From Sulfurihydrogenibium sp. YO3AOP1 (GTDB taxonomy: Bacteria; Aquificota; Aquificia; Aquificales; Hydrogenothermaceae), in NCBI RefSeq assembly GCF_000020325.1, contig NC_010730.1:1736175-1800174 (forward strand): a stretch of DNA of 64,000 nucleotides, in the 5' to 3' direction. The position numbers and the translations under genes are program-made. Shown piece by piece: positions 26,998-32,414 of this stretch. Below the pieces are notes generated by a model. That model saw only the letters and a program-made list of their open reading frames with translations. It searched no databases and had not been told where the DNA came from. Each line of letters begins with the position of its first letter. The first letter of the stretch is position 1.

Positions 26998-27387
26998 ATG
27001 AATATTAAAACGCATAACAAAATAAATCCTAAACTTTCCGGAGAGGTTATAGAGCTTGCTGAAGGAAAAACTGCAACGGTCAGATTAGAAACAAACGAAG
27101 ATATGCTTGCCGATGATAAAGGATTGATTCATGGAGGTTTTATATTTTCAGCGGCAGATTATTGTACAATGATTACAATTAACCATCCAAACGTTGTTTT
27201 AGGAAGTGCTGAAGTAAAGTTTATAAAGCCATTAAAGATAGGAGAAACAGCCTTTTTCAAAAGTGAGGTTTTAAACACTGAAGGTAAAAAAGTTTTAGTT
27301 AAAGTAGATGGTTTTAAAAATGAAGATAAATTTTTTGAAGGAACTTTTAAATGTTATGTTTTAGATAAACATGTTTTAGAGCCATGA
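26998..27387 (+). CDS. Hotdog-fold thioesterase, first gene of the pimelate operon
   Basis: The 129-aa protein has the hotdog fold of PaaI/YbgC-like thioesterases, with the active-site segment GLIHGGFIFSAADYCTM (HGG then an acidic residue) near residues 43-58 and the VKFIKPLKIGE strand. Such enzymes hydrolyse acyl-CoA or acyl-ACP thioesters. A GGAGGAG site precedes the ATG. The stop overlaps the bioW start by four bases, and four genes follow one another with overlaps, so it very likely acts in pimelate or biotin synthesis. Substrate assignment is inference. Confidence 0.8.
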   Translation: MNIKTHNKINPKLSGEVIELAEGKTATVRLETNEDMLADDKGLIHGGFIFSAADYCTMITINHPNVVLGSAEVKFIKPLKIGETAFFKSEVLNTEGKKVLVKVDGFKNEDKFFEGTFKCYVLDKHVLEP

Positions 27388-28121
27388 AGTTTTATAGTGT
27401 AAAGATGAGAGCATCGCTTAACGATAGACATGTATCAGGTGGAGAAAGAATAACAACTGAAGAAAGCATTCAAAAAGTAGTTTCAGAGCTTTTGACAAGG
27501 CCCAAAGAGTTTGATTTTGTCAATATAAAAATAGAAAAAATTAATAATATTAAGTTTATCGAGAAATCTCTTGATATAAAGACGATCAATGTAAAAAATC
27601 ATAAAGAAGGGAATGAAATTGCATTAAAATTACTTGAAGAGGTCGGGATTGATAGAGAAATTGCTAAAGCGTATATAGATTTATTACATACAGGAGCAAA
27701 TCCTGATAGAGAAAACATGAGAGGAGCAATGATTATAACAAGGTCAGGCAAAAGAGTAGAAAAAGACAGATACAGAGGAGTTAGAACTACAAACGTAGAT
27801 TTTTTACACCGTGAAGAAGTCAAAAAAATACTGTTAGAAAAAAAATATACAGAAAGAACCTTAGATGCCTTAGCATTATCAACAAAAAACCTAAACCATC
27901 TGGATATAATAGCTGAATACTGTATATCAGACCAACCAGACTATACAACCGGCTACGTTGCAGTTAATAATACATATTATAGAATCAATCCGTTGAAAGA
28001 ATATTCAAATCCAAAAGGTGGTAGAATATACTTTGTAAAAGATGATACCGATATTGAAGAGCTTTATAAATATTTACAGGAAGAAAGCTTTTTGATTAAA
28101 GAGGTTGGAAGTTTAGAATGA
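27384..28121 (+). CDS. bioW: 6-carboxyhexanoate--CoA ligase (pimeloyl-CoA synthetase)
   Basis: BioW activates free pimelate with ATP and CoA to pimeloyl-CoA, the substrate of BioF in biotin synthesis. The 245-aa protein starts MKFYSVKMRAS. It has the family motifs HVSGGERI, LLHTGANPDRENMRGAMI and KDRYRGVRTTNVDF, at normal length. It overlaps the thioesterase upstream and the hydrolase downstream by four bases each. BioW usually stands alone as a pimelate route, so its pairing with bioH and bioC here is unusual. Confidence 0.93.
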   Translation: MKFYSVKMRASLNDRHVSGGERITTEESIQKVVSELLTRPKEFDFVNIKIEKINNIKFIEKSLDIKTINVKNHKEGNEIALKLLEEVGIDREIAKAYIDLLHTGANPDRENMRGAMIITRSGKRVEKDRYRGVRTTNVDFLHREEVKKILLEKKYTERTLDALALSTKNLNHLDIIAEYCISDQPDYTTGYVAVNNTYYRINPLKEYSNPKGGRIYFVKDDTDIEELYKYLQEESFLIKEVGSLE

Positions 28122-28768
28122 AAGCCGTATTTATCCATGGATGGGGGTTTAGTAAAGAGATATTTAAAGATTACTACTATTTAGATAATAGTTTGTTTTT
28201 AGATTTGCCATTTCATGGGGACTTACAAGATTTTGAGAAAAATAATATTTTTGAAGATTATGTTAACTATGTTTCAAACATGATAAATGAAAAAACTACG
28301 CTTATTGGTTGGTCTCTTGGTGGCTCTGTTGCGTTTTTAACAGCTTTAAAAAATCCATTTATAGAAAAGCTTGTTTTAATAGGCTTTAGTCCAAAGTTTA
28401 ATAACAGTCTTCTTGGTAGTGATCCAAAAGCCATTAAAGCCTTTATGCTGAATCTAAACAATGATTTTGAAAATACAATATATCAGTTTAGAAAAACAGC
28501 TACGGGTGGAGAGTTTAGAGAGATTCCATTACCTGAAAAAGAGGGAAGTAAAGAACTTTTAAAAGAATACATAAATTTAGACTTAACAGAAAAACTTCAT
28601 CTTGTTGACATTCCAACTTACATAATCCAAGGAGATAAAGACTCAATAGTAAATCCAAATTCTGCTATATACTGCCATGAAAAAATCAATAATAGTCAAC
28701 TTATTTTATTAGACTCAAATCATGCACCATTTTTAGAAAGGGATATTTTCCAGTACATTGATGATTAA
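28118..28768 (+). CDS. bioH: BioH-like alpha/beta hydrolase
   Basis: BioH hydrolyses the methyl ester of pimeloyl-ACP methyl ester. The 216-aa alpha/beta hydrolase has the N-terminal FIHGWGFSKEIF oxyanion segment, nucleophile elbow GWSLGG near residue 66, a catalytic Asp in GDKDSIV and the catalytic His in NHAPF, all in the expected order. The position directly before bioC and the overlaps with both neighbours support the BioH role. BioG, which occupies the same place in other genomes, is an alternative name for an equivalent activity. Confidence 0.82.
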   Translation: MKAVFIHGWGFSKEIFKDYYYLDNSLFLDLPFHGDLQDFEKNNIFEDYVNYVSNMINEKTTLIGWSLGGSVAFLTALKNPFIEKLVLIGFSPKFNNSLLGSDPKAIKAFMLNLNNDFENTIYQFRKTATGGEFREIPLPEKEGSKELLKEYINLDLTEKLHLVDIPTYIIQGDKDSIVNPNSAIYCHEKINNSQLILLDSNHAPFLERDIFQYIDD

Positions 28769-29465
28769 AAAAAGAATCAGTCAATCTTTTTCAAAATCTT
28801 TCAGGACTTATCAAAATAAAGCAATCATACAGAAACAAACAGCTACCATACTGTCCAAAATGGCTGAGGATATAACCGGATTGGGTATAGATTTAGGCTG
28901 TGGAACAGGTTTTTTATACGAGAGTTTAAGAAAAAAAATGATAGGCGTTGATATATCTTTAAAGATGTTAGAAATCTACAAATCAAAAAATCCTTTGGCA
29001 ATCGCAGGAGATATAGAAAAACTGCCATTTAAAAATAATGTATTTGATTTTGCAGTTTCTAATTTTAGTCTACATTGGACAGATTTAAAGATAAGTTTAA
29101 AAGAGATTAGCAAAGTCTTAAAACAAAATGGCATTTTTTGCTTTTGCATGCCAATTGAAGGAAGTTTAAAAATCGTTGAGAATATCTTAGGAAAAAGAAA
29201 TTATGATTTTTACTCTGAAAAAGAAGCTATAGAAATACTCAGTGGATATTTTGAAATAATTATTTCATTCCATAAAGAGTTTAGACTTGAATTTAAAAAT
29301 GGGTTAGAGCTATTAAATCATCTTCACGAAACAGGTTCAGCGGTTGGTAAAGAGGGTTTAAGCTTGGGTGAAAAAAAGAGAATTTTTGAAAAATTTAAAA
29401 ATTACAATAAAACAGCGGTGCTGAATTTTAATGTATTGTTTGTTAAAGCTTTAAAGAGAGAATAA
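28761..29465 (+). CDS. bioC: Malonyl-ACP O-methyltransferase
   Basis: BioC methylates malonyl-ACP with S-adenosylmethionine so that the fatty acid cycle can elongate it to a pimeloyl derivative. The 234-aa protein has the class I methyltransferase motif I (GLGIDLGCGTGFLYESL) and the FDFAVSNFSLHW block typical of BioC. The N terminus RISQSFSKSFRTYQNKA also fits BioC. The ATG at 28761 is used; it overlaps the hydrolase stop by eight bases. A TTG directly before it is possible. It is the last gene of the four-gene operon. Confidence 0.88.
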   Translation: MIKKRISQSFSKSFRTYQNKAIIQKQTATILSKMAEDITGLGIDLGCGTGFLYESLRKKMIGVDISLKMLEIYKSKNPLAIAGDIEKLPFKNNVFDFAVSNFSLHWTDLKISLKEISKVLKQNGIFCFCMPIEGSLKIVENILGKRNYDFYSEKEAIEILSGYFEIIISFHKEFRLEFKNGLELLNHLHETGSAVGKEGLSLGEKKRIFEKFKNYNKTAVLNFNVLFVKALKRE

Positions 29466-29779
29466 ATTAAAAATAACACAAGAAAGAAACCTTTCGGACT
29501 AAAGTCCTCAGGATAGCGGTAAAAATTCATACGTGAGACTGCTTGCAAAAATCCACATCGTCATTCTGTAGTCGGCAAAAAATCTTATATTCTCTTGAAT
29601 TTTTTTACCAAGTGTATTTTTATTTGACTATCTTCTAGTCATCAGAAATTAACTTTTGATTAGTAAAAGCTTGATAAAGATATAAAAAACCTTCAATCAA
29701 AATTAACGTTAAATAAAATCATTGATGTTTTTAAAATAGAATATATAATAAGCATAATTATATGTTTGGAGGTAATAAT
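29466..29779. repeat. Intergenic gap with partial MITE arms (copy D)
   Basis: A right-type hairpin arm (CTTTCGGACTAAAGTCCTCAGGAT) is at about 29490-29513. A left end follows (GAGACTGCTTGCAAAAATCCACATCGTCATTCTG) from about 29535, so the arms are in the reverse order of a complete element and may come from two copies. The right part of the gap holds the copper operon promoter. No gene is seen. Confidence 0.65.
29722..29749 (+). promoter_or_regulatory. Promoter of the copper operon
   Basis: TTGATG (29722-29727) and TATAAT (29744-29749) are separated by 16 bases, and a GGAGG site at 29768-29772 follows before the first start codon at 29780. The dimension fits a sigma-70 promoter. No clear CueR or CopY operator was recognised. 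Confidence 0.55.
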
Positions 29780-30016
29780 ATGAAAAAGATAACTGCTGTT
29801 TTACTTTTTGCCTTTGGATTTTCAGTTTATGCACAAGAGCATAATCATGAAGAGCATAAAATGAGTCCACAAGTGCATAGATGTATGAAAGTTATGGAAG
29901 AGCCAGAATATATGGCAGAGATGTTTAGATATATGCTTCAAAATAAAGAAGCAATGAAAGAGATGCTAAACAAAAATCCAGACTTAAAAAAACAATTAGA
30001 AGATTTAGTTAAATAG
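29780..30016 (+). CDS. Small secreted His/Met-rich protein of the copper operon
   Basis: The 78-aa protein has a signal peptide (residues 1-20, ending VYA). The mature chain is rich in His, Met, Glu and Lys, starting EHNHEEHKM and repeating short Met-containing segments (CMKVMEEP, EMFRYMLQNKEAMKEM). The His and Met residues suggest a periplasmic copper-binding or copper-carrying role, but the family is not recognised. The ATG at 29780 follows a GGAGG site; an upstream in-frame ATG (29762) lies before that site. Its stop overlaps the multicopper oxidase start region. Confidence 0.7.
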   Translation: MKKITAVLLFAFGFSVYAQEHNHEEHKMSPQVHRCMKVMEEPEYMAEMFRYMLQNKEAMKEMLNKNPDLKKQLEDLVK

Positions 30017-30018
30017 TG

Positions 30019-31704
30019 ATGTTTAGTAGAAGAGAAATTTTAAAACTGGGCTTTCTATCAACCTTAGGATTAAGCTTTGATGCTTTTTCTGTGGTTAGAG
30101 ATTTAAAAATCCTTGATTTTAAAGAAGATGATGAAAAATTAGAATATACATTAGTTATAAGGAAAGAAAAAGTTAAAGTAGGAAGTAGAGAAGGAACAGG
30201 CGTTTTAGTAAATGGTCAGCTACCGGGACCTTTGTTAACATTTAAAGAAGGAAAGGAAGTTATAATACATGTAATAAATGAAATGGACGAACCAACTTCT
30301 ATACATTGGCATGGTATTTTAGTACCAAATAATATGGATGGTGTCCCTGGATTGGTATTTCCCGGTATAATGCCAAAAAGCAAATTTACTTACCGCTTTC
30401 CTGTCGTTCAATATGGTACTTACTGGTATCATTCACATTCTTTAATGCAAGAACAAACAGGTTTGTATGGACCCATTATATGTAAATCCGAAAAAGACGA
30501 TAGCATAAAGGCAGATAGAGAGTATATAGTACTTTTATCAGATTGGACAGATGAAAGTCCACACGACATATTAAAAAAGCTTAAAAAACATCCGGGATAT
30601 TATAATTATCAAAAAAGGACAATAAAAGATTTTATAGAAGATGCAAAAACCAAAGGATTTTTAAACACAGTTAATGAAAGGCTCATGTGGGCGCAAATGA
30701 GAATGGATTCAAGAGATATAGCAGATGTAACGGGTGCAACTTATACGTATCTAATGAATGGGCAAACAACAGAAGAAAATCCAACATTTTTATTCAAAGT
30801 TGGAGAAAAGGTCAGACTTAGATTTATAAACGCATCATCCGGAACATATTTTGATGTAAGAATTCCGGGGCTAAAAATGACAGTTGTTCAAGCCGATGGT
30901 CAAAATATCTATCCTGTTGATGTTGATGAAATAAGATTAGCTATAGCTGAAACTTATGATGTAATTGTAGAACCAAAAGAAGACAAAGCCTATGCAATCT
31001 ATGCAGAATCAATGGATAGAAGCAGTTTTGTGAGTGGAACCCTTGCAACCCGTTATGGTCTAAAACCAAAACTGCCGGAAAAAAGACCAGTTCCTGAACT
31101 TACTATGGAAGACATGGGACATCACCATCATCATAATCATGGACATCATCATCATGAAGAAGGTTATAAAATGATGTTAAATGTTAAGGACAATCCTTTT
31201 GGCGTTGATGCTGATATGATAATAGAAAATCCAAGACAAATGCTTGAAGACCCGGGCGTTGGTTTAAGAAATCAAAAACATAAAGTTTTGAATTATTCAG
31301 ATTTAGTAAGTTTAGAAAAATATCCCCTAAGAGAGCCGGATAGAATTATAGAAGTTCATTTAGTTGGAAATATGGAAAGGTTTATATGGAAGATGTACAC
31401 ATACGACGGTAAAAATCTTACATCAAAGTTTGAAGAACCTATAGATTTAAAATATGGAGAATTAGTAAGATTTGCAATCATTAACCATACAATGATGAAC
31501 CACCCAATTCACCTTCATGGTATGTGGTTGTATTTAGATAATGGTGGAGATAAATATAATCCAAGAAAGCATACTATAAACGTTAAACCCGGAGAGGTAG
31601 TCTTTGCAGATGTTATAGCTGATGCAGTTGGTAATTGGGCTTTTCATTGCCATGTGTTGTATCATATGGATTCCGGTATGTTTAGGGTGGTTAGAGTCAG
31701 ATGA
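30019..31704 (+). CDS. copA: Multicopper oxidase, CopA type
   Basis: CopA-type multicopper oxidases oxidise Cu(I) or bind copper in the periplasm. The 561-aa protein starts with a Tat signal (SRREILKLGFLS). It has three cupredoxin domains with the copper motifs HWHG, YWYHSHS, HPIHLHGMW and HCHVLYHMDSGM, so both the type 1 and trinuclear sites look complete. A His-rich insertion (about residues 365-380, HHHHHNHGHHHHEE) may bind extra copper. ATG 30019 is used; GTG 30016 just before it is possible. It overlaps the copB-like gene by four bases. Confidence 0.93.
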   Translation: MFSRREILKLGFLSTLGLSFDAFSVVRDLKILDFKEDDEKLEYTLVIRKEKVKVGSREGTGVLVNGQLPGPLLTFKEGKEVIIHVINEMDEPTSIHWHGILVPNNMDGVPGLVFPGIMPKSKFTYRFPVVQYGTYWYHSHSLMQEQTGLYGPIICKSEKDDSIKADREYIVLLSDWTDESPHDILKKLKKHPGYYNYQKRTIKDFIEDAKTKGFLNTVNERLMWAQMRMDSRDIADVTGATYTYLMNGQTTEENPTFLFKVGEKVRLRFINASSGTYFDVRIPGLKMTVVQADGQNIYPVDVDEIRLAIAETYDVIVEPKEDKAYAIYAESMDRSSFVSGTLATRYGLKPKLPEKRPVPELTMEDMGHHHHHNHGHHHHEEGYKMMLNVKDNPFGVDADMIIENPRQMLEDPGVGLRNQKHKVLNYSDLVSLEKYPLREPDRIIEVHLVGNMERFIWKMYTYDGKNLTSKFEEPIDLKYGELVRFAIINHTMMNHPIHLHGMWLYLDNGGDKYNPRKHTINVKPGEVVFADVIADAVGNWAFHCHVLYHMDSGMFRVVRVR

Positions 31705-32414
31705 AAAAAACGATTTCATTTTTTAGTTTATTTTTTATTTTTCTAAAAGCATTCTCTCAGGAACATCATAATGAAGAGATAAAAAATCCTATGCATCCTA
31801 TGAACTTTGGAAGTATTATCTTTGATAGACTTGAATACATTGAAAAAGGTAAATCCTTAGGTTATAAAATCACTGGCTTCTACGGCGGAGACTACAACAA
31901 ACTATGGCTTGAACTTGAAGGTAAAGATTACTTAAAAAACAGTAAAGGCGAGATTGAACGAGCTGATTTGTTATACGGTAAAGCCGTTTCAAGCTTTTGG
32001 GATGTAAGGTTCGGTGTTGGTTATGCTGGTGATTACAATAAAGGAAGAAAATCGGTAGTTTTAGGCTTAAAAGGACTTGCTCCTTATTGGTTTGAAGTAG
32101 ATTCAAACATCTATCTAACAGAAAAAGGGGAAGTATATTTAAGATTTAAAGCAGAAAATGATTTGCTATTTACTCAACGATTGATTTTACAACCCCATTT
32201 TGAGACAATATTAAGTAATAAAAAAATAGAAAACCTTGAACTTGGAAGTGGATTAAGCAAGGTGTCATTTTCTTTAAGGCTAAGGTATGAATTAAAAAGA
32301 GAATTTGCACCATATATTGGCGTATCTTTTGACAGATTCTTCGGTCAGACTAAAGAGCTGAGTCATAAAAGTAATGAATCAAGCTTTTTGATTGGAATAA
32401 GAATGTGGTTTTAA
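31701..32414 (+). CDS. copB: Copper-resistance outer membrane protein CopB
   Basis: CopB is an outer membrane barrel that accompanies CopA in copper resistance. The 237-aa protein has a signal peptide (residues 1-20, ending AFS). The family pattern follows: FDRLEYIEKGKSLGYKITGFYGGDYNKLWLELEG, then alternating beta strands and a terminal aromatic residue (IRMWF). It is shorter than Pseudomonas CopB because the Met-rich N-terminal repeats are missing. The four-base overlap with copA confirms the operon. Confidence 0.88.
   Translation: MKKTISFFSLFFIFLKAFSQEHHNEEIKNPMHPMNFGSIIFDRLEYIEKGKSLGYKITGFYGGDYNKLWLELEGKDYLKNSKGEIERADLLYGKAVSSFWDVRFGVGYAGDYNKGRKSVVLGLKGLAPYWFEVDSNIYLTEKGEVYLRFKAENDLLFTQRLILQPHFETILSNKKIENLELGSGLSKVSFSLRLRYELKREFAPYIGVSFDRFFGQTKELSHKSNESSFLIGIRMWF

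Follow-up and report, generated by a model that had tools for sequence, protein, structure and literature searches.

BioW is kept together with BioC and BioH across the Aquificota, suggesting either two entries into biotin synthesis or one serial route

The pimelate-CoA ligase BioW is retained together with the methyl ester esterase BioH and the methyltransferase BioC nearly throughout the Aquificota. All three are encoded in 84 of the 88 good genomes of this phylum (completeness of 90% or more and contamination of 5% or less, out of a set of 136), and in the Desulfuromonadia bioW and bioC share operons (one strand, at most 4 kb apart) in 48 of the 52 genomes that carry BioW. The link of BioW with BioC and BioH, proposed in a preliminary description of a single locus, is thus real, and its extension to other Aquificota proves to be general. 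The reading that we favour, with a probability of about one half, is a design with two entries, in which BioC and BioH would make pimeloyl-ACP and BioW would recapture free pimelate.

The window analysed here is a stretch of 64,000 nucleotides from the complete chromosome (1,838,442 bases, about 1.84 Mb) of Sulfurihydrogenibium, a thermophilic member of the Aquificota. As had been described, four open reading frames with a thioesterase-like gene in front follow one another on one strand, overlapping head to tail by 4, 4 and 11 bases (Table 1). The motif GGAGGAG, which resembles a ribosome-binding site, lies immediately upstream of the first frame. The same gene order is shared by eight genomes from two genera and can therefore be neither chance nor a misassembly. 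A scan for promoters and terminators gave signals scarcely above those of shuffled sequence. Two further biotin genes of this genome, bioF and bioB, are located away from the operon and score above their cut-offs. As to the surroundings, a gene for a PilB/GspE-like ATPase is located 250 bases upstream of the operon, at the place where relatives have panB/sua5. Downstream of bioC (29762-32414) there are genes for a small exported protein containing His and Met, a multicopper oxidase-like protein that has a stretch rich in His, and a CopB-like outer-membrane protein, which by their sequences likely form a copper-handling cluster.

Table 1. Genes of the operon at positions 26998-29465 of the window
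Predicted product	Position	Strand	Remarks
Hotdog thioesterase-like protein, PH1136-like subfamily	26998..27387	+	129 aa; 4HBT; HGG...AADY active-site motif
Predicted bioW, 6-carboxyhexanoate (pimelate)-CoA ligase	27384..28121	+	245 aa; above curated cut-offs
Predicted bioH-like pimeloyl-ACP methyl ester esterase	28118..28768	+	216 aa; Ser-Asp-His triad conserved
Predicted bioC-like malonyl-ACP O-methyltransferase	28758..29465	+	235 aa; TTG start, or ATG one codon later

The identities first given to these genes hold, for BioW by scores above the cut-offs and for BioH and BioC by best models, motifs and best PDB matches. As far as sequence comparison goes, the folds of BioW, BioH, BioC and the hotdog protein are settled by matches to solved proteins. 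BioW reaches 247.8 bits with PF03744 (cut-off 25), 278.9 bits with NF002360 and 207.7 bits with TIGR01204 (cut-off 194), and among solved structures it is closest to 5TV5, the BioW of Aquifex aeolicus. The BioW of one genome in our set, G001, is the same as the 5TV5 chain over the aligned part, and we therefore take this genome to be A. aeolicus. The active-site residues of the A. aeolicus enzyme are Y188, Y200 and R202 (PMC9544090), and the corresponding part of the alignment has invariant Tyr, Tyr and Arg if a numbering offset of 4 is assumed. The BioH-like protein has TIGR01738 as the best of all models, at 88.6 bits and under the equivalog cut-off of 207. Its top three PDB matches are all BioH structures, and the triad Ser82/Asp207/His235 and the GWSxG motif are invariant in BioH alignments with the E. 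coli protein. For the BioC-like protein the best of all models is TIGR02072, with 123 bits and likewise under the equivalog cut-off of 185, which is passed by no BioC in the 136 Aquificota genomes searched. The top PDB match is the malonyl-ACP O-methyltransferase 8X8I, and the alignment with E. coli BioC has the SAM motif and the SNxxxxW motif in common. These scores below the curated cut-offs would be expected if BioC and BioH were here a methyltransferase/esterase pair with a function outside biotin synthesis. We hold this to be very improbable, given that the best models and the best structural matches are those of BioH and BioC, that the triad and the SNxxxxW motif are conserved, that in Aquificota bioH adjoins bioC and is linked with bioW, and that in Desulfuromonadia bioC and bioH stand together with bioF and bioW.

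By best model, motifs and triad, the BioC and BioH of the window are alike to those of the E. coli pathway. The differences are that E. coli has no BioW and that Aquificota BioH is shorter, without the lid segment that carries R155 and R159 in E. coli. Four lid arginines of E. coli BioH, which we take to be those contacting ACP (R138, R142, R155 and R159), are not conserved in the aligned BioH proteins of Aquificota, nor in those of Desulfuromonadia. Since BioH from the bioWFHC operons also lacks these arginines, they are uninformative on an ACP-bound substrate and were dropped as a test for it.

Among all 136 Aquificota genomes, BioW is found in 121, a BioH-like protein in 122 and a BioC-like protein in nearly all. 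In the good subset the numbers are 86, 85 and 85, and A. aeolicus is one of the genomes with all three. Within the family of the window (f1), bioW adjoins bioH in 30 of 35 genomes and bioC in 20 of 34. The family that includes A. aeolicus (f2) has bioH next to bioC in 52 of 57 genomes and bioW elsewhere, and in family f5 the three genes are all unlinked, with BioH-like matches of about 30% identity that are less sure. The sole Aquificota family without BioW, f4, is represented by two genomes, in which we find a BioC-like protein, a divergent BioF and no BioH-like match. In one of them (G113, L272:2398-3706, minus strand), the BioC-like gene is overlapped upstream by an ORF of 208 aa that matches nothing in Pfam or NCBIfam and could encode a new kind of BioH replacement. 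Incomplete genomes that lack both BioW and BioH were rejected as evidence of joint loss, since assembly gaps confound them; the bioC missing from G021, for example, would fall at a contig edge.

Outside the phylum, GTDB contigs were scanned with a BioW profile and bio genes were then sought in the flanks. Operons of the type bioW-bioF-bioH-bioC were found in Desulfuromonas and relatives, and BioW operons without bioC and bioH in Tumebacillus, Bacillus, Nitrospirota, Treponema, Clostridia and Methanoperedens. On a single contig of a Bacilli MAG (RYN_350, L170:3921-8208), belonging to a third phylum, genes for a BioC-like methyltransferase, bioH, bioC, bioW and bioF are consecutive. When BioC was sought across the whole genomes of 20 BioW organisms, full-length matches above 300 bits occurred only in five Desulfuromonadia, a group favoured by the model because it contributes rows to it. 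The other non-Aquificota genomes did not exceed 84 bits, with matches covering part of the model, and no convincing BioC was found in the sampled genomes of Bacillus, Tumebacillus, Nitrospirota, Treponema, Methanoperedens and others with BioW. On this evidence, BioW also works with other sources of pimelate. The source of free pimelate in BioW organisms has been stated to be unknown (PMC11089781), and the preliminary description had proposed to fill this gap generally; as most other BioW organisms sampled are without BioC, the BioC-BioH route cannot be the general source.

The Desulfuromonadia offer a comparison of their own. Among 146 genomes BioC occurs in 127 and BioW in 52, the latter never without BioC (Fisher p = 1.6e-4, kinship ignored), and all 18 of the BioW-bearing stretches that were read have the order bioW-bioF-bioH-bioC. 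In a BioF tree nearly all BioW-bearing members fall into one clade, so that the co-occurrence reflects one or two events and not fifty. A further 75 genomes have BioC without BioW, and nested inside the BioW-bearing BioF clade is a genome (G180; L258, G180:C70) with bioF-bioH-bioC and no bioW, which was apparently lost from this operon. Together, these genomes indicate that BioC-BioH seems to be sufficient and BioW an add-on. The BioF phylogeny was also considered as a guide to whether BioF prefers the CoA or the ACP thioester, and discarded: E. coli BioF sits on a long branch, and the split between BioF from genomes with and without BioW is that of two Desulfuromonadia clades, which amounts to few independent events and gives no indication of the substrate.

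For Desulfuromonas, Rodionov et al. (2004; PMC545781) had already reported bioC-bioH as well as bioW, 'representing two different pathways', and predicted a BirA site in front of bioW, hence the co-occurrence as such is already known. Like the genome of the window, Desulfuromonas combines all three enzymes in one genome; its operon differs in containing bioF and no hotdog gene, while bioF is unlinked in Aquificota. In the part of the literature that was covered, we found no published description of the co-occurrence in Aquificota or of a serial route. To our knowledge, the biotin ligase of A. aeolicus is without a DNA-binding domain.

The hotdog protein in front of bioW scores 30.6 bits with 4HBT (cut-off 20.6). 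Its closest solved relatives are Pyrococcus horikoshii PH1136 (1IXL; 1.3e-32), Cj0977 and an HP0420 homologue, followed by FapR, and we know of no link to biotin for PH1136, Cj0977 or the HP0420 homologue. The HGGF..xADY motif with its Asp is present in every aligned Aquificota copy and, as HGG...ADY, in PH1136, the Asp being absent from Cj0977 and from the HP0420 homologue. Since this residue, typical of active PaaI-like thioesterases, is kept, an acyl-thioesterase function is likely and the activity originally proposed is possible. The scheme put forward for this locus went further and made the protein a dedicated (methyl)pimeloyl-ACP thioesterase that would feed BioH and then BioW. The overlap of the genes in eight genomes and the catalytic-type Asp conserved in all aligned Aquificota copies are in line with it, but distribution and gene context led us to judge a dedicated biotin partner unlikely. 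The hotdog gene adjoins bioW in 8 of the 85 Aquificota genomes having both (G000 and G098-G102 of genus g1, G078 and G079 of genus g6), whose copies group as a single clade in the protein tree (support 95/92). Among the 84 good genomes that encode all of BioW, BioH and BioC, 21 have no detectable copy. In six of the eight genomes with the hotdog gene beside bioW it lies directly after panB and sua5, genes of other functions (L034:138-1500 and equivalents in G098, G099, G102, G078 and G079), and outside the clade its neighbours are unrelated and change by lineage. In A. aeolicus (L274:1787-3157, minus strand) a protein of 456 aa combines the hotdog domain (4HBT at 41-111) and an MtnA/IF-2B-like domain (IF-2B at 175-447) as an in-frame fusion. 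The homologue in Pyrococcus points in the same direction, the Thermococcales, its order, being reported to have only bioB of the pathway (PMC6138646). Of five Desulfuromonadia with bioWFHC operons that were tested, one has a hotdog gene, on a different contig from bioW. The simplest reading is that a general thioesterase gene moved beside bioW once, probably in the ancestor shared by Sulfurihydrogenibium and the neighbouring genus. The protein itself is probably active as an acyl-thioesterase, and its role would be general and unlinked. For this protein, the intact active-site motif agrees with the earlier proposal, but a dedicated membership in the pathway is not supported.

In the two-entry design favoured here, family knowledge suggests that BioC would methylate malonyl-ACP, that ordinary fatty-acid synthesis would extend the product by two rounds and that BioH would strip off the methyl group, leaving pimeloyl-ACP as the substrate of BioF. 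BioW would separately charge free pimelate, either leaked from the BioC-BioH line via cellular thioesterases or taken up, to pimeloyl-CoA, which BioF would also use. Such parallel entries are favoured by the 75 Desulfuromonadia that have BioC and no BioW, and by the operon of G180, from which bioW was apparently lost. A difficulty is that BioW is almost never lost in Aquificota (86 of 88 good genomes), which is unexpected for an optional recapture enzyme. By analogy with B. subtilis, a BioF that uses pimeloyl-CoA only would make BioW obligatory in Aquificota. Furthermore, Desulfuromonadia and Aquificota may differ in this respect, and the distribution counts represent few independent events.

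The near-universal retention of BioW in Aquificota speaks instead for a serial route. There, BioC-primed synthesis and BioH would produce the C7 chain, a thioesterase, the hotdog protein or another one, would free pimelate, and BioW would recharge it for a BioF that accepts the CoA ester only. We regard this as a possibility of lower probability than the two-entry design. The joint retention of all three enzymes in 84 of 88 genomes fits it, as does the recurrence of shared operons in two distant groups, with the Bacilli MAG (L170) as a possible third. Biotin synthesis in B. subtilis passes through free pimelate as a true intermediate, which derives from fatty-acid synthesis (PMC7645780), and the BioF of this species is reported to accept pimeloyl-CoA only (PMC11089781). 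B. subtilis BioW belongs to the same family as the BioW of the window, but genomes of the B. subtilis type have no convincing BioC, and the pimelate source there is a different one. Against a serial order there are also the Desulfuromonadia with BioC and without BioW, including the one with an intact bioFHC, and the ATP spent on hydrolysing a thioester and recharging the product, the gain of which is not evident. Tentatively, then, the chain made by BioC and BioH might in Aquificota be obligatorily freed as pimelate and recharged by BioW, in which case the textbook alternatives would be one serial pathway.

The two-entry design remains our preferred reading of these genomes. Overlapping genes in Aquificota are poor ground for naming a pathway enzyme, as the lineage-dependent neighbours of the hotdog gene illustrate. 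With BioC, BioH and BioW together throughout the phylum, and BioW solved from one of its members (5TV5), the Aquificota are a clean setting for the question whether these enzymes act in parallel or in series.
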